A stretch of DNA of 39,920 nt from Myxococcales bacterium (GTDB taxonomy: Bacteria; Myxococcota_A; Polyangia; Polyangiales; Polyangiaceae). The translations under genes were made by a program, and so were the position numbers. The notes below the pieces were generated by a model, which was not told the origin of the DNA, did not search any database, and worked only from the letters and a program-made list of their open reading frames with translations. The stretch covers positions 1-39,920 of the forward strand of contig JAHFDZ010000019.1 of NCBI GenBank assembly GCA_023248745.1, written 5' to 3'. Positions 15,814-30,104 of this stretch are shown here, one piece after another; within the stretch, counting starts at the first letter, position 1, and every line of letters begins with the position of its first letter.

Positions 15814-16524
15814 TCAGTTCGTGTTGTCGCCTTCGACGATGTTCGTGTCCTTCGGCGGCGTGAACTCGAAATCGGAATCGACTGCCTTGCAGTTGAGGCG
15901 TGGTGCTTCGAAGTTCATTTGGTTGCGATTGCCATGGGTGTCGAGAATGACGACACGGCGCATTTGCTTGGTGGCTTTGTCGACGTAGAAGAACACCTTT
16001 TTGTATTCGGGTGCGTCGTTCTTCGGTGAGCCTTCGAGGACGTAACCGTTTTTGAACTTCTCGGTCATGCCTGCGTTGATTGTGAAGTTGAAGCTGTCGC
16101 GAAGCTTGCCCTTGCCGCGCAAGAAATCGAGAACCGGGAACTGGCTTTTCTCGATTGACTTGACGAAGAGTTGGCGGTCGCCCTTTTGGAAGACCTTGAC
16201 CTTGTGGCCGTCGGTGACGACGTGGTTGCCGTTGTCGTACTTGAAGCGCATTTTTCCGCCATCTTTGCGGAACACAACGTTGCCGGATGATTTGTCTTCG
16301 CGGCCGTGGGCCTTAACCTTGAACGTTTGCGTGAACTTTGCGCAGAAGCTTTGCGACGCGTCGTAGAAGTTCTGCATGCCGTCGACCACACTGTCGACGC
16401 TCGCGTCGTCCCCTGCTGCGGCGGGCGCGTCTTCTGCGTGGGCTGTGCCCTCTGTCGCGAAGGACAAAGCGCTAGCGGCAGCAAACGAGAGAACCGCGAA
16501 AAACGAAAGGGACATACGGGGCAT
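15814..16524 (-). CDS. lolA: LolA-like outer-membrane lipoprotein carrier
   Basis: A 236-residue secreted protein with a signal peptide cleaved after AHA (about residue 30). The mature part has the LolA/LolB half-barrel pattern: an N-terminal helix (FYDASQSFCAKFTQTF), then long antiparallel strands (GNVVFRKDGGKMRFKYD, HVVTDGHKVKVFQKGDRQLF), the loop DFLRGKGKL, and VFFYVDKATKQMRRVVILDTHGN near the C-terminus. LolA carries lipoproteins across the periplasm to the outer membrane, fitting a genome rich in lipoproteins. It has one extra Cys in the N-terminal helix and one near the C-terminus that could form a disulphide. It follows ruvC by 66 bp on the same strand. Confidence 0.88.
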   Translation of the reverse strand: MPRMSLSFFAVLSFAAASALSFATEGTAHAEDAPAAAGDDASVDSVVDGMQNFYDASQSFCAKFTQTFKVKAHGREDKSSGNVVFRKDGGKMRFKYDNGNHVVTDGHKVKVFQKGDRQLFVKSIEKSQFPVLDFLRGKGKLRDSFNFTINAGMTEKFKNGYVLEGSPKNDAPEYKKVFFYVDKATKQMRRVVILDTHGNRNQMNFEAPRLNCKAVDSDFEFTPPKDTNIVEGDNTN

Positions 16525-16590
16525 CGACGTTGATCTCCTGGTGGATGAAGGGTTCTTAGCGCAAAAACCTTCCCGCGAAATCTGCGGAAA

Positions 16591-17118
16591 CTATCGTTTA
16601 GACGGACGAGGTGGCAAAGCGTTCTTTAGTCGCTGCTTTTGTTGCGAAATCCAGGGTGCAGCTTGCAAACACGTAATGGCGAGGGCCAACGCATCGGCAG
16701 CGTCGGCGGGAGGCACCTCGGCGAGACCCAAAAGCATCCGAACCATGCGCGCGACCTGGATTTTCTCCGCTCTTCCGCTTCCGGCGACGGCCTTTTTCAC
16801 GAGCGTGGGGGCAAATTCGTAAATGGAAAGGCCGGCTCGCGCACAGACCAGGAGCGCGACACCGCGTGCATGACCGAGCTTGGAGGCCGCTTGAAGGTCT
16901 TTGGCGAAAAATAAGGTCTCGATGCTCGCCATCGATGGAACGAATTCACGAGCAATCGCGTCAAGGTCGGCTTCGAGCTTGACCAGCCGCGTCGCAAGTT
17001 CGGCATCGGCGTCGAGGTGGATTATGCCATGAGCGATGTGCTTCACGCGCGTACCTTCGCGCGTGACAACGCCCCAACCGCAGTGGCGCGTGCCGGGGTC
17101 GATGCCGAGAACTTTCAA
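16591..17118 (-). CDS. ruvC: Holliday junction resolvase RuvC
   Basis: A 175-residue RuvC nuclease that cuts four-way junctions during recombinational repair. The catalytic acidic residues are D7 in GIDPGT, E67 in ASIETLF, and D139 and D142 in PPADAADALALA. FFAKDLQAASKLGHARG (71-86) is the usual DNA-binding helix region. The start is TTG at 17118, required to keep the family start KVLGIDPG. It begins 10 bp after the stop of yebC, an operon order common in bacteria. No ruvA or ruvB follows; the next gene is lolA. Confidence 0.95.
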   Translation of the reverse strand: MKVLGIDPGTRHCGWGVVTREGTRVKHIAHGIIHLDADAELATRLVKLEADLDAIAREFVPSMASIETLFFAKDLQAASKLGHARGVALLVCARAGLSIYEFAPTLVKKAVAGSGRAEKIQVARMVRMLLGLAEVPPADAADALALAITCLQAAPWISQQKQRLKNALPPRPSKR

Positions 17119-17128
17119 AGGCAGTGGC

Positions 17129-17875
17129 TCAGGAGAGCTTGGCTAGCTCTTCGTCTGAAAGGTCGAAATCGGCAAACACGTTTTGAACGTCGTCGTTGTC
17201 GTCGAGCGCTTCGGCAAGATTGACGCATTGCTGGGCCTCTTTGCCAGCGACCTGCTTCTTGTTCTTAGGCAGGAAAACGAGGGACGAGTTCTTCGTGGGA
17301 ACCTTCGCCACCTCAAGCGCATCAAGCACGATCTGGAGCGATTCGGGCGCCGTCGTGACGTGCCACTCTTCGCCTTCATCTGAGTAATCGTCGGCGCCAG
17401 CGCCAACGGCGGCTTCCATCAATTGATCTTCGTTCGCGGCCTTCTTGTCGAGAACGATGACGCCCCTGCGATCGAAGGCCCAGCCGGCGGCCCCGGAGGA
17501 GCCGAGCGTGCCGCCGCCCTTGTCGAAAATTTTGCGCAACTCGGCAACAGTGCGGTTGCGGTTGTCGGTCATGCCTTCGACGAGGAAGAGCGTGCCGCCA
17601 GGGCCCGTGCCTTCGTAGAGGACTTCTTCGTAGTTCACGCCTTCGATCTCGCCTGTGCCACGCTTGATGGCGCGTGCGATGGTGTCGGAAGGGAGCGAGG
17701 CGCCCTTTGCATCACTCACCGACTTTCGAAGACGAGGATTGCCACTGATATCGCCACCGCCCAAACGCGCTGCGACGGTAAGTTCTTTGATCAACTTGGA
17801 GAAGATCTTGCCGCGCTTGGCGTCGAGCGCGCCCTTCCTGTGCTTGATCGTTGCCCATTTGGAGTGGCCACTCAT
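17129..17875 (-). CDS. yebC: YebC/PmpR family protein
   Basis: A 248-residue member of the YebC/PmpR/TACO1 family, starting with the diagnostic MSGHSKWATIKHRKGALDA. These cytoplasmic proteins have been described as DNA-binding regulators and, more recently, as ribosome-associated factors that help translate difficult sequences. The middle domain contains NYEEVLYEGTGPGG and the acidic C-terminal domain has DNDDVQNVFADFD, both standard. A GAGGT ribosome binding site lies just upstream of the ATG at 17875. It is followed closely by ruvC, the common chromosomal arrangement. Confidence 0.97.
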   Translation of the reverse strand: MSGHSKWATIKHRKGALDAKRGKIFSKLIKELTVAARLGGGDISGNPRLRKSVSDAKGASLPSDTIARAIKRGTGEIEGVNYEEVLYEGTGPGGTLFLVEGMTDNRNRTVAELRKIFDKGGGTLGSSGAAGWAFDRRGVIVLDKKAANEDQLMEAAVGAGADDYSDEGEEWHVTTAPESLQIVLDALEVAKVPTKNSSLVFLPKNKKQVAGKEAQQCVNLAEALDDNDDVQNVFADFDLSDEELAKLS

Positions 17876-18849: not shown

Positions 18850-21800
18850 TCAGTGCGTCTTCGCCGCGAGCGGAAGAACGACGTGGCTCGCGAGAAATAG
18901 CTCATCCACGCGACGCGACAGCGCCAAGAAGGTTGCAAACTGATCGGGCGTAATCACTTTTGGGCGAAGTTCGAACGTGAGTTCGTCGTGAACGGCATGC
19001 GCATCGTGGGTTGCGCGCCGCACTGCAACAACGTGATCTTCGCGGAGTTCTTCATCGTCAACTTGTTTACCTATCGTGAGCGATGCGGGCAATTCGATAT
19101 CGCGCACGACGTGATACTGCAGGGCATCATGAATCACTAACGCCGTGCTGCGATCGCTGCGCGCGCCAAAGGTTCGAATCATCGTCGAGGCGTTCACGGG
19201 GGACGCGCGATGAAATGGAACGAGACCCGGTATCCTAAGACGGCCAGAATCGCCCTCGCGCTCTGCGTAGCGCGCCGCAACAACAGAAGCGCGCACCACG
19301 ATGCGATCACCGTCTCGCGACGTGTTGACGGATACGACGTCCGCGCCGGGCACCCAGGACGAAACGATCGATCGAAGGAGATAGGCGCGAGGCTCGCCAA
19401 CCGCGCGCTGCAAAGCCTCGTCCAGTTCTTGTGCGGGAGGTCCACCGACTTGCAGGTGCACCTCACCTTCCGCATCACCATTGGCAAGGAGCCGAAGTTT
19501 CAAATGAACTTCGTCTCGATCAATTTTGACCCAATCGCGCGACAGTAACTCGATGCGACCATCGGCGTGCAGTATCGGTCTCCCGACGAGCTCTGGCATC
19601 ACTTGACCCAGGGGAAGCGGCGCGCCACTGACGTCAGCATCAATGAACACTTGCTTTCCATCGATCGTCGCGCGCAGCAAAGGATGCATGAAACGTCCTG
19701 GATGTACGATTGGATCCTTGTCGACACTCACGGGCTCCGGTTCGCCAACCACCACTTCGGAGGCGATTCCAAGTTCCCGCAATGCGCGGTGAATGACCCA
19801 TGTGCGCGAGCCTTCGCGCGCAAGAAGCATGCTGCGCGCGCTTTGCGCAAGCGTGCCTTCGGTGCGAACAAATCCTGAATCGGCAAGCAGCCATGGCGAA
19901 GAGACGCGAAGCCGATCGCCAACGTGCTTGACGAGTGCGCGCACCGCCTCGAGGTTTGCTTTCGACTTAAGTGCTCCCGACGCCGCCACGAGGGCGCTGA
20001 TCTCGACGTCCCCCTTGTCGTCGAGCGCAACGAGAGCACTTGCGAGCCTTGATCCGACGCCTCGCCACGTGTCATTCGTCGCGAGTACCGACACCGGCCT
20101 ATCGAGAAGGAGCCCGCGCCACTCGATGTTGCGCGGACCAAGACTGTGCGCTTCGTAGACGACATTCTGAGTCGAAAGATCGCAAATGGAGCCACTCGAC
20201 ATCGTATTGGGCGTGCAACTCGGATCGCCCGCCACGATTTGACGCGCAGCGCCGAGCAGCGGATGCGCACGCAGCCGAAAGGTACTGGGGACGTGAATCT
20301 CGATACGTGCATGATCCACGCGTGTTCGTTCGGCGAGTAGCTCGGGTGTATCAAACGCGAGGTATCCGCGCGCATCAGGAACCGCATAGCCAACAATGAT
20401 CGACTCGACGCTATCGCCTGCTTCGAGTTGCACCAAGTCAGCACCCGCCTGCGCTGCCTCGGGGGTGCGATTCGGCTCGATGACACGACCATCGCGTTTG
20501 AAGATACGTCTTCGCACTGTGCGAGACGAAACGATGCCATCGATGATGGGAACGTCGGCTTGCGCATTCTGCTCGACGTCGGTCGTCCCACCAAGGCGTC
20601 GTAGATCGAAAATTTCGAAACCAAGAATGCGGCCCGCTATCACATACCGCTCTTGATGCTCCACTACGACCGTCGCTTCGCCGACCTTGGCGATACTCGT
20701 GCTCAGCGCTTTCTCGGCGAGTCCGTCAAACGGCAAAGGCGAGTCACCGAGCCCGTGCAAAATGAGCAAGTGTGGAACGTCTGGCATCGCGACGGAGGCA
20801 ACGCGCGCTCCGAGACAAGACGCGAGCGCGATGCTGCGCTCTCCCGATAGCAGCGTTTCCCACTTGACATCGCTACCCTTGCCGCGAAGGCAATCGAGCT
20901 CAGCGATTTGACCTGCGAAGGCAACAGGTGCGTGCTTTCGCACGCGTTCTCGTTCGAGCGACTTTCGCGCCTCCTCTAGCCTACCGGCTAAGCGTTGAAC
21001 GTTCGCACATGCCTCATTTCCGCGCGCGGCACAGACCCGCGCCTCTTGCTCCAAGGGAGCCGCCGGAAACGATTGCGCCTGCGCCACCTTGAAAACGATC
21101 GTGGCTGCCGGCTGTGCGTCGATCGCTTTTTGCGCTTCGCCGGGTTGACCCATTGTCAACCAACATGACGAACCGATCAACTTGACCAACGCGCTTCCCG
21201 GTGGCGTCAGTTTGTCGACCGTCGCATCCGCAAGAGCGGCACGACACCCTTGCGCACCACCCTTCGTCTCGTACGTAACGGCCGCCGCGGTTGCGACCGC
21301 CTCCCATGATCGCGGCTCGCGCTCATGAACGTCGGCAACGATAGCGCTAACCTTGCGCAGCATTTCGCCCTTCGGCAAATCGCGCGAAAGACGAAGCGCG
21401 CGAACGTACGCCAACGCAAGTACCGGACTCACGTCCCGCGCACTTGAAACGCGATCACCGAGGAACGCTTGCACTGCACGCGCGTCGCCGCGAAGCGCCA
21501 GCGCCCCAGCTTGCAACGCAAGGCAAGCATCGTCGACGCACGTGCGCGCTCCACTGGGCAGCATGGCGCCAAGTTGCGATCGGGGCGCACCATCCTCTGC
21601 GCCTGCAGACGCGAGCGGCTGATCGTCTAGCCACGCAAAGACGCTCACCTTGTCCGAAGCCACGCCCATCCACGCACCGACTTGCACGTCGATCGAACCG
21701 GATGAAACGGGTGCCGCGAAGACATTGAACGTCGCTCCAGGCCCCGACGAAAACGCACGCGTTGACACGACCTCGCCGTTGATTCGGAGTTTGGCGGCAT

Positions 21801-22434
21801 TCGTCGCGGACCAAGCCACGCGTAAGGTGCCGGGATGCGATGCGTAGTACCTCCCCACGATGCGTCGCGATCCTGTGCGCGCCGATGACCCATTGAGAGC
21901 AAGATCGCACCCTCGATTTTGAACACGTGCGACGTCCGACGAAAAAATGCCATCACCCAAATTCGCGAGGCTCTCCGGCCCTTGAGTCGACGACATCGGA
22001 CCTTCGAGCACAACTTGGTCAAGACACTTTACATAACTACGCAGGTCGCTTGCACCATTCGTTTTGCCCGACAACTGAAGTAGCGCAAGCGCCAGGCACA
22101 TGCGCTTGTCGCCCGTTGATGCGACGAGCAATTTCTCAATCGAGTCGGCGAGCGAGCGCGTACTGCGCGACGCAAGCGACACTTCCTCGAGCGGCCCGAG
22201 TGGAGCGGTCGCACGCCGAATCAGGAGCTCAAGTGCAGCCTGGGTCACAAGCGCGTTTGGGTCCCGATCTTCTGCAATGGCGGAAAGGGCCTCGTCAATG
22301 GCACGCTCCGTGTCGCCGATGAGTTCCAATTGAAATGCGCGCTGAACCGCATCCGTGCGACTTGTTGTTGGCGCAACGGGCGCTCGACAACCGATAAGGA
22401 CCAGGAATGCAGCGAGAGAATAGAGCCGTTTCAT
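18850..22434 (-). CDS. DUF3857/transglutaminase-like lipoprotein lacking the catalytic Cys
   Basis: A 1194-residue lipoprotein with a signal and lipobox (FLVLIGC, Cys15). The first 500 residues are helical and TPR-like. A DUF3857-type beta domain follows (RRRIFKRDGRVIEPN, LVQLEAGDSVESIIVGY at about 640-700), and then a transglutaminase-like core at about 820-940. Aligned to its upstream paralogue, the core Cys is replaced by Arg877 (REGSRTW), while His917 (GRFMHPLL) and Asp932 (FIDADVSG) remain. It is therefore probably a non-catalytic paralogue, perhaps structural or regulatory. The ATG at 22434 overlaps the stop of the upstream gene by ATGA, so both proteins are likely made together. Its exported location is inferred from the lipobox. 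Confidence 0.85.
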   Translation of the reverse strand: MKRLYSLAAFLVLIGCRAPVAPTTSRTDAVQRAFQLELIGDTERAIDEALSAIAEDRDPNALVTQAALELLIRRATAPLGPLEEVSLASRSTRSLADSIEKLLVASTGDKRMCLALALLQLSGKTNGASDLRSYVKCLDQVVLEGPMSSTQGPESLANLGDGIFSSDVARVQNRGCDLALNGSSARTGSRRIVGRYYASHPGTLRVAWSATNAAKLRINGEVVSTRAFSSGPGATFNVFAAPVSSGSIDVQVGAWMGVASDKVSVFAWLDDQPLASAGAEDGAPRSQLGAMLPSGARTCVDDACLALQAGALALRGDARAVQAFLGDRVSSARDVSPVLALAYVRALRLSRDLPKGEMLRKVSAIVADVHEREPRSWEAVATAAAVTYETKGGAQGCRAALADATVDKLTPPGSALVKLIGSSCWLTMGQPGEAQKAIDAQPAATIVFKVAQAQSFPAAPLEQEARVCAARGNEACANVQRLAGRLEEARKSLERERVRKHAPVAFAGQIAELDCLRGKGSDVKWETLLSGERSIALASCLGARVASVAMPDVPHLLILHGLGDSPLPFDGLAEKALSTSIAKVGEATVVVEHQERYVIAGRILGFEIFDLRRLGGTTDVEQNAQADVPIIDGIVSSRTVRRRIFKRDGRVIEPNRTPEAAQAGADLVQLEAGDSVESIIVGYAVPDARGYLAFDTPELLAERTRVDHARIEIHVPSTFRLRAHPLLGAARQIVAGDPSCTPNTMSSGSICDLSTQNVVYEAHSLGPRNIEWRGLLLDRPVSVLATNDTWRGVGSRLASALVALDDKGDVEISALVAASGALKSKANLEAVRALVKHVGDRLRVSSPWLLADSGFVRTEGTLAQSARSMLLAREGSRTWVIHRALRELGIASEVVVGEPEPVSVDKDPIVHPGRFMHPLLRATIDGKQVFIDADVSGAPLPLGQVMPELVGRPILHADGRIELLSRDWVKIDRDEVHLKLRLLANGDAEGEVHLQVGGPPAQELDEALQRAVGEPRAYLLRSIVSSWVPGADVVSVNTSRDGDRIVVRASVVAARYAEREGDSGRLRIPGLVPFHRASPVNASTMIRTFGARSDRSTALVIHDALQYHVVRDIELPASLTIGKQVDDEELREDHVVAVRRATHDAHAVHDELTFELRPKVITPDQFATFLALSRRVDELFLASHVVLPLAAKTH

Positions 22435-25400
22435 CGTGCACCTTCTTGCACGAGCTGCGCGGTCCGAAGGAAAAGTGCGTCCACTTGCGCAAGCCAAGCT
22501 CGCCACGCCGCGTACTCCTTCACGGGAATTTGATCGCGCCGCAACTCGAGCTCACGCGCCATCATGAGCTCTCGACCTGAAACCTTGAGAGAGAGAGACG
22601 CGCGACCAAAAAGCGGATGAACAATCCCTCCGCCACTTGGAATGGCAGACCACTCCTTGCCCTTAGGAGCCTCAAACGTCACGCGCCTCTTCTGTAACGA
22701 AGGCGCAAGAGACGGCGGCAAGACCATCGCCAACGTTCGAGTCGGAAGCGCCGCCAGTTCCGACACCAACGAATTGGAGGGACCCAACGGCACAATCAGT
22801 ACACTTCCTTGACGACGCGCAACACCGGTCAGGCGAGCGTCGTAGCTCAGTGTTGCAGCTCCTTTTTCACGCTCCCCGTCAAAAGCAACCGCACCGGTTA
22901 CTTGTGACGTCGGAAACCAAGGCGACAGTAAGCCTTGCGCAATGTAGTCCGCTCGCTGCGCGGCTTCGCCAAGATAAGTTCGCATGTAGAAGGCTGAATC
23001 GCCTGAGTACGTTTCATTCGCCTTCAGAACTCCGTCGCCGAATTCTGTGAGCTCAATCCGCCACGCTACGTCACTTCCGTGCTCACCGGGCTTACTCTCC
23101 GGAAGCTTCACCAGCGCTGCCGGACCGTCGTCGAGTCTTAGTGCAGATGCTTGACCATCCATACTCGGCAACACCCCAAGACGGGACTGAGGACTCGTCG
23201 CATCGAGATAGAGATCGAGCGACGGAATGTAAGCGATGCCATGATCGAACATCGGTACCACCGCGAACTTGCCGTCGAGCACAGAAGGCTTTGCCGTAAG
23301 GCGCGTTTGCACAAGCACTTCGCGTGCATCAACATCGATCGCTTTGAGAAGCGAAATGAGCAACACGGCTTTGTCGTCACAGTCACCCTCGCGGCGCGAA
23401 AGAACCTCTTGCGGACGGTTGGGTAGCCACTGCTCGGCGCTGACGTAGTTCACATAGCGAACGTGATCAGCGACGTACTTGAAGAGGGCGGAAATTTGGT
23501 CAAGCTTCGAAATTTTTCCCTTGGTGATCACTTTCGCGAGTCCGCGAATCTCTGCGTCAGGCTCGGTGAACCCGACGACAGCGTCTTTGTACCAACGTCG
23601 AAAGTCATCCCAGCTGGCGAATGTTGACCCCACGACCACGGGCAGCAGCTCGCTCAGTTGCGGAGAGAGTGGTTCCTCCGCAATGAGTATCGGCTTCTTC
23701 CACGAGTAGCGTGTCACGTGCCTCGTGCCGTCGTCTTGTTCGGTGCGCTCATCAACCGAGCCGCGCACTTCGGTGTGCAACAAAGCGCTTTTCGGCGCAT
23801 CGATGATCACGTCGTTTTTGAGAAGTGGCCGCGTGACCGTCGAACCGCCGTAGTCGACGAAGTAGAAGGGCGCATCGCTCTTGCCTCCGACTGGTTTCTT
23901 GGTTCGAACGCGAACCGCGACTTCTACGGTGTCGCCAGACGCTAGCTCAGCCCACTTGATGCGTGGACGCTCAGAGTCGTGTCGCTCCTCGAGTGGGAAA
24001 GCCACTGAACCATCCTTGTGGTGCACACGTGCCCTCAAAATTTCGAGCGTATCGCTCTCAAACGGCAACTCCTCTTCGAGCTCGTCGCTCGTGCGCGGCG
24101 CAATGACGATTTCGCGCGCATAGTGAATAAGCTGCGAAACGCGACGATCATCGTTCACCGTCACCGCGCGCGTCCAAAAGAGCTCCCGCGAAGCAACTCC
24201 CGCTTCAAAACCTCGCCGAGTCGATAGCCATGCACGCGGATCGACGAGGTAGCGCTCATCGCGCTCAGCAGGCCGCTCGGACTTCGCGCTCGCAAGCAAG
24301 GTGTCGGCCGGAGCCAAAGCGAGAGCACGCGCCATCGCACTTTTGTGCAGGTCGCTTCGGTGCTGCGCGTCGAGCACGCGAGCATACGCGGACCATACCT
24401 TCGGGCGATTCGGCATGAGTGCCGTCATTTCCTCAAGTAACTTACCGATGTCTTCTGTGCTCCCCAGCTCGCTGACGCAGTCGGCCAGGGCCATTGCTTC
24501 CTCGTCATCGAGGTACCCAACACCAAGCGCCTTGCGAACAAGTGCCACCGGCTGCTTCGGATCGAGCAACGCCGAAAGGCGCACTGCCGCGGGAGTTGGT
24601 GCGAAGGAAGCAACTCGCTGAAGGGCCCGTTCGGCAAGCGGACGATCGACGGAAGGACCGAGTTCAACGGCCAGCGCCGCCGCGGCATCCGAGAGGTCGA
24701 GATTCGCAAGTTCTTTTGCCGCCGCGCGCTGCAGCGTCACCTCTTTCGTTGCGGCGAACGCCATCGCACGAAGAACGCGCGCTTCTTGATCCGTCAACTT
24801 GGTGAACGATGCGGCGCGAGCCTCTGCAACTGCCCAGTCAACTTGACTGGCCACCAGGTGTTGCTCGATGGCGCGGCGCTGGAGATAGGTTCTCTGGGGC
24901 AAGGATAGTCTTCGATCGCGCTGCAGCCTGGCCGTCCATGCCGAACGAACGATCGGAGAAGATACGTGCGTCGCAAGAACGATGCGCTCCTCGAGAGTAA
25001 GGTGCCCTGGGGACTCGAGCGCGGTCGCCGCTAGGCCGGGCGCTCGTGGATGTTGCGAATCGTCGGCGCCGAGAAGAATGCGCAAGAGGGCTTCAACGTG
25101 CCCTTCTTTTTTCATCGCCTCGTTTATTGGTAACATCGATCGATTGATTTTCGATCCAGCACGCGGTGGCACGACCGACGGTGCTTGCATCGGATCAATC
25201 CATCGAAAGCCGCTTGGCGCCTTCTCGTTGTCGAGTAGATCGAGCTCTACAATGCCTGCATCGATGCGCGTCGTCGTGCAGACCTTCGCAAGCAATTGAT
25301 GCGCCCCTGGCTCAAAGGTCATCGAAGCTGCAAAGCGTGTTGCGAGCGCTTCCTCGTGGGCCTCTTCATCGCGCGAGACCTCTTGACCGTCGACGAAAAG

Positions 25401-25994
25401 TGTCGCCTGCCCCGATGCGGCCAGCGCCACGATGACGTTGTTTGCCGCGTGCTCGAGCTGCACCTGTCGCAAGACCCAGCTGCACGATTCGGAACGCGGC
25501 GCGATCATCAACGCAAGCGGAGCAAGCACGCCCGAAGGCGACGCTCGCCACGAAGCGCGATAGTCGCCAAAATCGTAACTTTTTGTGAGCACAATTGGCA
25601 CACTCGGATCGAACGGCTCTTCTCCTGCTCGAATCGGTCCGAGCACGAGTGAAGGTGGCGCGCTGTCGGCCCCACAGTCGTGCTTGATGCGACACGCGAG
25701 CCGCTTGACGTCGTGAACAAGAATCGCGTGCGCCAAAGAATCGTTCGTCAACTTGGTGAACTTTTTAGGGGCCCGCCAGGCGTGGAGCATTGCCGGATCG
25801 ACGGACGACGCAACGGAGTCGATGAGTCCGATCGCCATGAGCGCTTCTGAGGGCCGCTTTGCGGCCTCGAGCCTGCTTGCTGCAAGCTTGAAAGATTCGT
25901 CGGCGGTCGCTCCCACCCAGCGATCCTCTGCATGTGCAATCTGGAGACAGAAACCGATCGCGAAGGCCACTAACGGCGAGGTGGGGCTGCGCAT
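22431..25994 (-). CDS. Large exported DUF3857/transglutaminase-like protein with intact triad
   Basis: A 1187-residue protein with a signal peptide cleaved after AHA (about residue 23). A long helical, TPR-like N-terminal half (to about 600) precedes a DUF3857 beta domain (ARVHHKDGSVAFPLEE, WAELASGDTVEVAVRVR). The transglutaminase-like core has the triad Cys872 in REGDCDDKA, His918 in MFDHGIAY and Asp931 in YLDATS. Such domains act as peptidases, transglutaminases or peptide-cyclising enzymes; the substrate is unknown. The C-terminal 200 residues are beta-rich. The ATG at 25994 is chosen because it starts the signal peptide; the frame extends to 26048 without it. It overlaps its paralogue by 4 bp and is divergent from the zinc-ribbon gene. 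Confidence 0.88.
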   Translation of the reverse strand: MRSPTSPLVAFAIGFCLQIAHAEDRWVGATADESFKLAASRLEAAKRPSEALMAIGLIDSVASSVDPAMLHAWRAPKKFTKLTNDSLAHAILVHDVKRLACRIKHDCGADSAPPSLVLGPIRAGEEPFDPSVPIVLTKSYDFGDYRASWRASPSGVLAPLALMIAPRSESCSWVLRQVQLEHAANNVIVALAASGQATLFVDGQEVSRDEEAHEEALATRFAASMTFEPGAHQLLAKVCTTTRIDAGIVELDLLDNEKAPSGFRWIDPMQAPSVVPPRAGSKINRSMLPINEAMKKEGHVEALLRILLGADDSQHPRAPGLAATALESPGHLTLEERIVLATHVSSPIVRSAWTARLQRDRRLSLPQRTYLQRRAIEQHLVASQVDWAVAEARAASFTKLTDQEARVLRAMAFAATKEVTLQRAAAKELANLDLSDAAAALAVELGPSVDRPLAERALQRVASFAPTPAAVRLSALLDPKQPVALVRKALGVGYLDDEEAMALADCVSELGSTEDIGKLLEEMTALMPNRPKVWSAYARVLDAQHRSDLHKSAMARALALAPADTLLASAKSERPAERDERYLVDPRAWLSTRRGFEAGVASRELFWTRAVTVNDDRRVSQLIHYAREIVIAPRTSDELEEELPFESDTLEILRARVHHKDGSVAFPLEERHDSERPRIKWAELASGDTVEVAVRVRTKKPVGGKSDAPFYFVDYGGSTVTRPLLKNDVIIDAPKSALLHTEVRGSVDERTEQDDGTRHVTRYSWKKPILIAEEPLSPQLSELLPVVVGSTFASWDDFRRWYKDAVVGFTEPDAEIRGLAKVITKGKISKLDQISALFKYVADHVRYVNYVSAEQWLPNRPQEVLSRREGDCDDKAVLLISLLKAIDVDAREVLVQTRLTAKPSVLDGKFAVVPMFDHGIAYIPSLDLYLDATSPQSRLGVLPSMDGQASALRLDDGPAALVKLPESKPGEHGSDVAWRIELTEFGDGVLKANETYSGDSAFYMRTYLGEAAQRADYIAQGLLSPWFPTSQVTGAVAFDGEREKGAATLSYDARLTGVARRQGSVLIVPLGPSNSLVSELAALPTRTLAMVLPPSLAPSLQKRRVTFEAPKGKEWSAIPSGGGIVHPLFGRASLSLKVSGRELMMARELELRRDQIPVKEYAAWRAWLAQVDALFLRTAQLVQEGAR

Positions 25995-26086: not shown

Positions 26087-26764
26087 ATGTTCCCAATGGC
26101 AAGCGTGGCCGATTTGCGGCCCTGCCCTCACTGTGGCGGCCAAGTCAAATACGAGCCAGATCCCCAATTGCTTTGGGTCTGTGGCGCGTGTGGAGGCCCA
26201 GTGATTCCGGGGTTTCGCGCATCGAGCGGCCCCATCCTGGATACGCTCGCGGGAGCAAAACGAGCGAAGGCCGGCACATTTGCTCGACGAATGTGGGCTG
26301 GCGCGGCTGGAGCCTTAGCCAGCGGTCTCGCGATTGCGTCAGGAATCTCGGCGCTTTTCTCAGCGACGGTCGCCATAGCGCTCGCGGCGGTCACTTTGGT
26401 ACCGATTCTCGTCGCCTTCACAAGCTGGAAGGGCGCAACAGGAAAGGTCGCAGAGGCGAAACGGCTCACCGAAGAAGCATGGCTCCTCTATCTAGGCGAC
26501 GTCATTCGCAACAGTGAGCGATCCATTTCGGCCGAGAAGGTTGCGCAGGCCGCCCAAATCTCGGTCGCTCGCGCAAGCGAAATGCTGGAGTCACTCGCGC
26601 GTCGCGGCGATCTCGATCTCAACATCACGCACGAAGGGCGGCTCACCTATAGCGGCCAAGCGCCGGGTGTGCGCGTCGCCGAAGATACCACCACTGCCGA
26701 CGAGGCTTCCGAGTTCGAAGAGCCTCTTGAAGGGGAAGCAAAGGCACGTCTGGTGAAGCCGTAA
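26087..26764 (+). CDS. Zinc-ribbon, two-helix membrane protein with winged-helix tail
   Basis: A 225-residue protein. The N-terminus has a zinc ribbon: C13-P-H-C16 and C32-G-A-C35. Two hydrophobic helices follow at about 66-110 (AGALASGLAIASGISALF and VAIALAAVTLVPILVAF). The C-terminal part (about 140-200) looks like a winged helix: ISAEKVAQAAQISVARASEMLESLARRG, then a beta wing. The topology suggests both soluble domains face the cytoplasm, so it could be a membrane-tethered DNA-binding regulator; this is inference. The start is uncertain among ATG codons at 26051, 26087 and 26096. Its TAA shares a base with the ATG of the methyltransferase gene (TAATG), indicating coupled translation. Confidence 0.75.
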   Translation: MFPMASVADLRPCPHCGGQVKYEPDPQLLWVCGACGGPVIPGFRASSGPILDTLAGAKRAKAGTFARRMWAGAAGALASGLAIASGISALFSATVAIALAAVTLVPILVAFTSWKGATGKVAEAKRLTEEAWLLYLGDVIRNSERSISAEKVAQAAQISVARASEMLESLARRGDLDLNITHEGRLTYSGQAPGVRVAEDTTTADEASEFEEPLEGEAKARLVKP

Positions 26765-28038
26765 TGGAACGAAAGCGCTCCCTCACGCACGTTGGCGGCG
26801 GCGTTTCGGCGGTGGGTGACTCAAAGCTTAGTGTGGCACTCGCGTATGCGCTCGACGTCACACCAGCCGCACCTCCGACGGGTGGTGAGGGTGCCGAAGA
26901 GGAAGACCGCGCGCACGTGCACGGCTTTCATACGTACCCAGCGCGCATGCATCCCGAAACCGCAGCGCGCTTGATCGGCGCGCTCGCATCGCCCAATGAC
27001 ACCATTTTTGATCCATTTTGCGGCAGCGGCACGGTGCTTGTCGAAGCCGCAATCGCTCGCGCTCGCGCGTACGGCACGGATCTGAACCCATTGGCCATTC
27101 GTCTCGCGAGCCTAAAATGCAACTACTACGGTGACCCATGGCTCAAGGCGTTACATGCAGAAGCCATCAAGGCCGCTGAGGTCGCCACCTATCGACGCGA
27201 ACAAAAAAGTGGCGCATCGCATCGGTATCCCGACAGCGACATGCAGCTCTTCTCGCCGCATGTGCTCCTCGAGCTCGATGGTCTTGCAGTCGGCATCGCG
27301 CATGCCGAAGAAGAGATGCGACCGGCCCTCGAACTCGTCCTCAGCGCCATCTTGGTCAAGGTGAGTCAGAAGCGAAGCGACACCACCAGGCAAGTGTCAC
27401 AGCGCCGAATCGCAGCGGGATATACGACGAAGTTATTCGTCAAGAAAGCTGTCGAATTGTGTGAACGGATGAAGCAATTCCGGTCGCTCGTAAAGTCTGC
27501 GCCGCAAATCCAAGTCGGCATCGACAACGCAACGCGGCTCGAGACCGTGCCCGAAGATGCCGTTGACTTGGTCGTAACGTCGCCGCCTTACGCCGCGACG
27601 TACGACTATTATGCGCATCACGAGTTACGTTTTCGCTGGCTCAACCTCGACGCGCGAACGCTTGAAAGTCGTGAGCTCGGCGCAAGGCGAACCTACTCAC
27701 GCACTGAGTCCATTCGTGCGGCGCGCGATCTTTGGTTCACCGAGTTGACGGCCACGCTTCGCGCCCTCGAGCCTACGCTTCGAGAAGGCGCGAAGGTCGT
27801 GCTGCTCATGGCCGACTCGGCGATTCATGGTGAAGCGCTGCGCGCCGATGCGTCGGTCGAAGCAGCCGCGCGCGAAACTGGATTCAACCTTGTCGCCGCG
27901 GCGTCGCAGTCGCGGCCGCATTTTCACATGCCAACGATGCGTGCCTTCGAGAAAGCGCCTCGCCGCGAGCATCTGCTTCTGCTAGAGCGCGACCGTGGCC
28001 AAAGTCATCATTCTCTCGAAGACCCGCCCGCCGTTTGA
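26764..28038 (+). CDS. SAM-dependent amino-methyltransferase (TRM11/N4-N6 type)
   Basis: A 424-residue methyltransferase. The SAM-binding motif is DPFCGSGT (83-90), preceded by HGFHTYPARMHPETAARLI, and the catalytic motif is TSPPY (272-276). TSPPY indicates methylation of an exocyclic amino group, cytosine N4 or adenine N6 in DNA or guanine N2 in RNA. The FHTYPARMHP block and the motif order (SAM loop first, about 180 residues of insert, then TSPPY) resemble TRM11-like and stand-alone DNA methyltransferases, so nucleic-acid type is undecided. No restriction endonuclease gene is adjacent, which argues against a simple restriction-modification pair. It overlaps the ferredoxin gene by 44 bp. Confidence 0.87.
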   Translation: MERKRSLTHVGGGVSAVGDSKLSVALAYALDVTPAAPPTGGEGAEEEDRAHVHGFHTYPARMHPETAARLIGALASPNDTIFDPFCGSGTVLVEAAIARARAYGTDLNPLAIRLASLKCNYYGDPWLKALHAEAIKAAEVATYRREQKSGASHRYPDSDMQLFSPHVLLELDGLAVGIAHAEEEMRPALELVLSAILVKVSQKRSDTTRQVSQRRIAAGYTTKLFVKKAVELCERMKQFRSLVKSAPQIQVGIDNATRLETVPEDAVDLVVTSPPYAATYDYYAHHELRFRWLNLDARTLESRELGARRTYSRTESIRAARDLWFTELTATLRALEPTLREGAKVVLLMADSAIHGEALRADASVEAAARETGFNLVAAASQSRPHFHMPTMRAFEKAPRREHLLLLERDRGQSHHSLEDPPAV

Positions 28039-29072: not shown

Positions 29073-30104
29073 ATGTACTCCTCGCCCCCAAATTCGAGAG
29101 CTCGAACAGCACACGCCGCGGTGACCCCGTCGGTCGTGCTCGCGCCGGGGTGGGTCCTTAGTACGATGCGCAACCTCGCCACGCAAGACTGGTTTGCCCT
29201 TGGTTACCAGTGTCTTCTGCTCGTGGCCGTGGCTCAAGCGCACATGAGTGGTCGCGGCAACGGCGGCGCTCTTCAACAAGTCTTGGGCAACGTTGCGATC
29301 ATGGTCACCGGTCTTGCGCTGACGCGAGGCCACATCCTCGGCGCCGAGACGAACCTTTCGCGATTGCTGTACCGCGCGGTGCTCATGGGCCCGATGCTGG
29401 GCTCGTACTTTCAACTTCGTCACATCGCACCGGTCGTGAACGATCGCGTGCTCGATGCTCAGATTCTCGCCTTTGATCTGCGCGTGTTCGGCTACGAGCC
29501 TGCCGTGGCCTGGGACCGCCTTGTCACACCGCAAACCACCGAGTGGTTCGCGTTTTTCTATTTCCTCTACTTCGGGCTACTCACGATTCATGTGCTGCCC
29601 ATTCTGTTCGGCAGTCGCAGCAACCTTCGCACCGCACACTTCGCATTCGGCATGTTGATCCTCGTCGGCACGGGTCACATCCTCTACCTCATGGTGCCGG
29701 GGTTCGGACCGTATCGGCATCTCGCTGGCCAATTCGTCAACGAACTTAATGGTGGGCGCTTCTGGCATGCGGTTCAAGCAACGGTGAGCGCAGGCGGCGC
29801 ACAGAAAGACATCTTCCCGAGCTTGCACACCGCCGTGCCAACGTTCTTCACCCTGTTTGCGTACATCCATCGACACGAGCGGCCTTACAAATATTGGTGG
29901 CCGGTCATGGTGGTCATCACGTCGCAAATCATCGTGGCGACGATGTTCCTTCGTTGGCACTACATGATCGACATCTTCGCGGGCCTCGCGCTGGCATTGT
30001 TCTCGGTATTTGTGAGTCATCGCGTTGTGGCGAAAGAGATTGCGCGGCGTGCAAAGCAGGGCCTCGAGCCTGCGTTTACGCCGTTTCAACTTGGGCGTTC
30101 CTGA
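29073..30104 (+). CDS. PAP2/Aur1-type membrane phosphatase or head-group transferase
   Basis: A 343-residue multi-pass membrane protein with five or six helices. The catalytic PAP2-superfamily residues are visible in the Aur1/inositol-phosphorylceramide-synthase style: H252 in FPSLHTAVP, and H296 with D300 in RWHYMIDIFAGLAL. Members cleave or transfer phospho-head-groups of lipids at the membrane surface. In this genome, which also makes a phosphonate head group, it might act on sphingolipid or phosphonolipid, but that link is inference. The ATG at 29073 is chosen; the segment before the first helix is poorly conserved-looking and GTG/ATG codons up to residue 32 are alternatives. Confidence 0.88.
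   Translation: MYSSPPNSRARTAHAAVTPSVVLAPGWVLSTMRNLATQDWFALGYQCLLLVAVAQAHMSGRGNGGALQQVLGNVAIMVTGLALTRGHILGAETNLSRLLYRAVLMGPMLGSYFQLRHIAPVVNDRVLDAQILAFDLRVFGYEPAVAWDRLVTPQTTEWFAFFYFLYFGLLTIHVLPILFGSRSNLRTAHFAFGMLILVGTGHILYLMVPGFGPYRHLAGQFVNELNGGRFWHAVQATVSAGGAQKDIFPSLHTAVPTFFTLFAYIHRHERPYKYWWPVMVVITSQIIVATMFLRWHYMIDIFAGLALALFSVFVSHRVVAKEIARRAKQGLEPAFTPFQLGRS

Follow-up and report, generated by a model that had tools for sequence, protein, structure and literature searches.

Why would a bacterium keep, beside a secreted enzyme, a second protein of similar length and fold that lacks the catalytic cysteine? Two overlapping genes, here called A and B, raise this question in a 39,920-nucleotide stretch of Myxococcales DNA (the window). 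A preliminary description of the window regarded them as transglutaminase-like paralogues, one an enzyme and the other a pseudoenzyme, that form an obligate pair. The reading we favor, to which we assign a probability of about 0.6, is that A and B together make up a two-subunit cysteine enzyme of the cell envelope, with B as its membrane-anchored pseudoenzyme subunit. The contact between the proteins, the catalysis, the substrate and the role of B are all matters that we infer. The features of both genes are collected in Table 1.

Table 1. Features of genes A and B, with coordinates in the window
Feature	Position	Strand	Basis
Gene B: predicted lipoprotein, 1194 aa, same fold as A, pseudoenzyme	18850-22434	-	ORF, AlphaFold model, profile comparison
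B lipoprotein signal, lipobox LIGC with Cys16	22387-22434	-	sequence, orthologues
B beta-sandwich resembling PA14/GH2 modules, ~residues 136-290	21565-22029	-	model
B TPR-like helical array, ~residues 300-580	20695-21537	-	model
B DUF3857-like region, ~residues 584-785	20080-20685	-	fold; one B' homologue passes the Pfam DUF3857 cut-off
B transglutaminase-like pseudo-core, ~residues 786-965, without any Cys	19540-20079	-	model, alignment
B invariant Arg877 codon, GSR motif	19804-19806	-	codon check, orthologues
B His917 codon	19684-19686	-	codon check
B Asp932 codon	19639-19641	-	codon check
ATGA, stop of A overlapping start of B	22431-22434	-	sequence
Gene A: secreted DUF3857/transglutaminase-like protein, 1187 aa, triad intact	22431-25994	-	ORF, Pfam, AlphaFold model
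A predicted type I signal peptide, residues 1-22, AHA|E	25929-25994	-	sequence; same type in orthologues
A beta-sandwich resembling PA14/GH2 sugar-binding modules, ~residues 111-270	25185-25664	-	alignment, model
A TPR-like helical array, ~residues 290-598	24201-25127	-	model
A DUF3857 region, ~residues 599-790	23625-24200	-	Pfam, model
A transglutaminase-like core, ~residues 791-965	23100-23624	-	Pfam, model
A Cys872 codon	23379-23381	-	codon check, alignment
A His918 codon	23241-23243	-	codon check
A Asp931 codon	23202-23204	-	codon check

Protein A carries the hallmarks of an active enzyme. Specifically, its match to Transglut_core (PF01841) scores 38.8 bits against a curated Pfam cut-off of 23, Cys872, His918 and Asp931 are invariant in the alignment of A orthologues, and the catalytic Cys is retained in every readable orthologue. 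The Pfam match of A alone to DUF3857 is weak, and the PF12969 cut-off is reached by A solely together with its neighbours in frame. No BTLCP match for A is found in Pfam at E 0.01, a Pfam search of B returns no domain match, and the NCBI curated protein-family library holds no model that names either protein.

The relationship between the two proteins becomes apparent when families rather than single sequences are compared. A profile-profile comparison between A (22 orthologues) and B (21 orthologues) gives 99.6% with E 1.8e-24 over approximately 1000 columns. AlphaFold models built from the orthologue alignments (mean pLDDT 85.2 for A and 81.8 for B) have in both N-terminal halves a PA14/GH2-like beta-sandwich followed by a TPR-like array. 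Both C-terminal halves match the structure 3kd4 (Z 20.2 for A, and 17.9 for B with 471 residues aligned), which ranks well above all other chains. By fold, and for B by fold only, both proteins contain DUF3857, then the transglutaminase core, and then a C-terminal beta domain. The profile comparison and the models thus show B, on predicted structure, to be a true paralogue of A over most of its length, and the domain order and ATGA overlap reported earlier are borne out. Outside the catalytic domains, Cys171 and Cys239 in the PA14-like region of A and Cys468 and Cys476 of B are invariant or nearly so, and perhaps form disulphides.

The two proteins differ at the active site. In the models, the catalytic helix starts at residue 872 in A and at residue 877 in B, and therefore Arg877 occupies the place of the Cys. 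Codon checks at all six positions agree with the triad alignment of the preliminary description, in which Cys872/His918/Asp931 of A face Arg877/His917/Asp932 of B. Protein B has the fold of the superfamily and lacks its catalytic Cys. The Arg is always conserved (66 of 66 distinct readable B orthologues). An apparent 'Ala' at this position in some sequences was dropped, because it stems from one broken contig (L102/L170) read in the wrong frame.

Other residues of the former active site are also kept. Asp932 and Asp934 are present in 87 of 87 B sequences and Ser876 of the GSR motif in 85 of 88, while His917 is found in 75 of 89, the remaining 14 carrying Y, K, A, Q or R. There is no relocated Cys in the B domain, as 80 of 86 sequences are free of Cys and no Cys column is common to them. 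The stretch from residue 860 to 960, which contains the pseudo-active site, is enriched in invariant residues (18/101 versus 50/1053, p 7e-6), which argues that the former active site is maintained rather than decaying. Together with the invariant Arg, this enrichment rules out recent decay. The conserved site is charged, comprising Arg877, Glu898, Arg914, Asp932 and Asp934. Across the whole transglutaminase domain, however, conservation is lower in B than in A (entropy 1.54 versus 0.92), and the DUF3857 and C-terminal parts of B are about as conserved as its transglutaminase domain, such that a pure anchoring role for B is possible.

If B is a partner of A, then the two genes should be retained together. 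Strong matches were counted by hand in 108 genomes of the Myxococcota family to which the window belongs. Gene A is found in 69 and gene B in 70, and named records with B include the Polyangiaceae Sorangium, Polyangium and Minicystis. Both genes are present in 67 genomes, A alone in two, B alone in three and neither in 36 (Fisher p 1e-22). The five exceptions, confirmed by a repeat search, are fragmented assemblies (73-97% complete, 380-970 contigs), and these include both of the A genomes, among 69, that are missing B; a frequently absent second gene was therefore not observed. The pair is not always adjacent: among the 67 genomes with both genes, 34 have them adjacent, 13 have them 3-320 kb apart on the same contig and 20 have them on different contigs. 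In Sorangium- and Polyangium-type genomes, A and B lie approximately 9-320 kb apart and are both retained, and such joint retention of distant genes is seen in complete chromosomes as well. Wherever they are linked on one contig and strand, A is upstream of B (42 of 42 cases). Since half of the genomes have A and B dispersed, co-translation of the two is not required. It is the joint presence of A and B that is required, and not their adjacency; the obligate functional pairing put forward in the preliminary description is well supported.

A second pair of this kind exists. A DUF3857 profile search of the window's genome identifies two more proteins besides A, encoded in tandem on another contig and here named A' and B'. 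Of 207 sampled Myxococcota genomes, about half carry this pair, a count that is approximate because the B' profile also catches A and A' type proteins. Gene B' lies after A' on the same strand in 58 loci across the phylum, where loci L219-L278 were mostly picked for having both matches on one contig and their adjacency is no measure of frequency. Protein A' passes the Pfam cut-offs for DUF3857 and Transglut_core, and B' of one relative passes that for DUF3857. Cys, His and Asp are retained in all A' rows with a letter there (89-90 rows; Cys 89/89). At the Cys position, 88 B' sequences have R (68), P (11), L (5), S (2) or A (2), and none has C. Thus, no pair in which both members keep the Cys was encountered among the 66 distinct B and 88 B' sequences. 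The position matching Ser876 is variable in B', with S, N, D, H, E, K and others. Moreover, B' is present in 17 of 17 family genomes searched, mostly ones in which it lies away from A' and including complete chromosomes, and the B' sequences read from these genomes again lack Cys.

The contrast in membrane attachment is also repeated. By rule-based prediction, A has a cleavable type I signal whereas B has a lipobox, as described earlier, and the same difference is seen in their orthologues. Among the second pair, a lipobox is found in at least 58 of 73 B' sequences versus three of 70 for A'.

Several features surrounding these additional genes deserve mention. In four genomes, a small GTPase gene (an Arf-type Pfam match, MglA-like by eye) and a Roadblock/LC7 gene adjoin A' in divergent orientation (L106:3095-4349, L109:1868-3040, L115:2291-3375 and L120:11657-12791). 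This set recalls MglA and MglB, the myxobacterial polarity pair. A protein with a FliM/FliN C-terminal (type III C-ring) domain is encoded downstream of B' in six loci (L114:1194-2333 and five others). Contig C175 of the window's genome (G000) carries two more Transglut_core proteins (loci L184 and L185), whose open frames, separated by about 4 kb, span 590 and 1096 aa. Five nearly complete genomes of 4.1-4.4 Mb from one genus of the same order (G040, G049, G245, G279 and G288) give no A'/B' match.

How might two such pairs have arisen? A tree of 90 C-terminal halves, computed by a quick method and unrooted, groups A with A' (support 99) against B with B' (B' support 81). Likewise, the B profile is far closer to that of B' (hhalign E 7e-64) than to that of A. 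The tree topology argues for a single split between enzyme and pseudoenzyme, one that predates the separation of the two pairs. The simplest reading of these sequences is that the pair was possibly duplicated as a unit, and A'/B' is probably the older copy, spanning Myxococcota.

The second pair also supplies controls for the evolution of the first. YebC, RuvC and LolA had first served as controls in a covariation test, with a partial r of 0.91; because these proteins are short, A' and B', which match A and B in length, took their place in a second test. Partial correlations of evolutionary distance, computed over the 17 genomes that carry A, B, A' and B' and with the other two proteins held constant, are highest within pairs (0.65 for A-B and 0.57 for A'-B'), versus -0.07 for A-A', 0.13 for B-B', 0.26 for B-A' and 0.41 (p 0.02) for A-B'. 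The cross pair A-B' thus covaries to some extent as well, which counts against the two-subunit reading. Such rate covariation fits specific pairing of A with B and of A' with B', but does not prove contact.

In our hypothesis, catalysis falls to A, a secreted subunit with a Cys-His-Asp triad that belongs to the transglutaminase-like superfamily and would act as a hydrolase or as an acyl transferase, with an extracytoplasmic protein or glycan as its substrate. Protein B would be its lipid-anchored pseudoenzyme subunit, which has kept the enzyme fold while being presumably incapable of forming a thioester. Most likely, B would tether A to a membrane and help to hold or present the substrate, comparable to the inactive alpha subunit in the mitochondrial processing peptidase (MPP) and in bacterial M16B peptidases, and the TPR and PA14-like portions of A and B may bind partners or sugars.

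The main rival, which we consider unlikely, casts B as a regulator: it would sequester A, holding it idle at the membrane until a signal arrives, as LapD does with LapG. The predicted signals (B a lipoprotein, A soluble) would suit this arrangement, and the LapG-LapD reports provide the precedent of a membrane receptor that recruits a soluble periplasmic transglutaminase-like Cys protease (PMC3032545; PMC4359373). However, LapD is an inner-membrane c-di-GMP receptor and no paralogue of LapG, whereas the model of B has no such signalling domain and is not LapD-like, and A has no BTLCP match. Furthermore, in M16B, the nearest precedent among paralogues, the two members form one active unit. Slightly less probable still is a common pathway without contact, in which B later binds or exports what A has modified. 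Dispersal of the genes in about half of the genomes is compatible with this proposal, and a common pathway can also yield rate covariation, but the full-length homology, single domain order, fixed order when linked and top within-pair covariation fit a heteromer better.

We regard as very improbable that B is itself an enzyme whose catalytic residue has shifted or been replaced by another, such as Ser876 of the GSR motif. Active sites do migrate in papain-like enzymes (PMC10318531), and this serine is nearly invariant in B. Nevertheless, its counterpart in B' varies, the modelled helix starts at Arg877, His917 is replaced in some B sequences, and most B domains have no Cys at all. A relocated nucleophile was rejected because no Cys column is common to the B sequences and because Ser876 is not kept in B'.

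Among known systems, the two-subunit reading has its best parallel in the M16B/MPP peptidases, in which an active beta subunit works with an inactive alpha paralogue that lacks the catalytic motif and is needed for activity, and which include a bacterial two-gene operon (PMC11266112). Like these, A and B are a catalytic and a non-catalytic paralogue encoded together, by analogy and not homology: M16B peptidases have an unrelated fold and zinc chemistry, a contrast in lipid anchoring is not described for them, and the heterodimer is proven there, whereas we infer it here. The fold of the C-terminal halves is common to DUF3857-transglutaminase proteins (PF12969 and PF01841) such as 3kd4 (BDI_1141 of Parabacteroides distasonis), for which no functional study was found in the literature searched. 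In contrast to the single chain of 3kd4, A and B add the PA14-like and TPR half and the tandem arrangement with one dead member. As envelope transglutaminase-like proteins with a Cys-His-Asp triad, HvyA and TgpA resemble A. According to the accessible portions of the reports cited for both (PMC4241560; PMC3507681), the triad is needed for capsule control by HvyA in Caulobacter and TgpA of Pseudomonas aeruginosa has transglutaminase activity in vitro; those portions describe no dead paralogue partner, and the domain architecture of both proteins is different. Similarly, the animal pseudo-transglutaminases EPB42 and FBXO21 have the fold without the activity, as B would (PMC10318531), but are not known as obligate pairs with an active paralogue in a bacterial envelope.

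The neighbors of A and B, located in relatives by searching with the window's own genes, show some conservation. Downstream of B, the same strand carries genes for YebC, RuvC and a LolA-like lipoprotein carrier (15814-17875), in an order that is found again in relatives. Xanthomonas campestris also has a DUF3857 gene immediately upstream of lolA (PMC6341742). Two further genes lie near A and B, here as in relatives and in varying order: one is DNA/RNA methylase-like (26764-28038, PF01555/PF01170) and the other encodes a PAP2 protein (29073-30104).

In open-access literature on DUF3857, Myxococcus transglutaminase and pseudoenzyme transglutaminase, we found no active/dead transglutaminase-like pair. 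The principle is known from M16B peptidases; what appears new is a bacterial transglutaminase-like case conserved across a phylum, in which the pseudoenzyme is a lipoprotein and two pairs exist in parallel. To our knowledge, few bacterial enzyme/pseudoenzyme pairs are conserved this deeply.

At about even odds, these proteins may represent a heteromeric transglutaminase-like envelope machine that extends through the phylum, whose catalytic subunit and lipoprotein pseudoenzyme split once before the pairs diverged, were possibly duplicated as a unit and have been kept as specific pairs. If so, they would define a new bacterial class of obligate cysteine-enzyme pairs with one active and one dead member. 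Around half of the sampled Myxococcota genomes carry such a pair, and because cultured Sorangium, Polyangium and Minicystis strains are among the carriers, the question is open to gene deletion. With an invariant loss of the Cys, opposite membrane topology as judged by signal type, and two parallel pairs in one genome, the system is a clean natural setting in which to ask what purpose a dead subunit serves.
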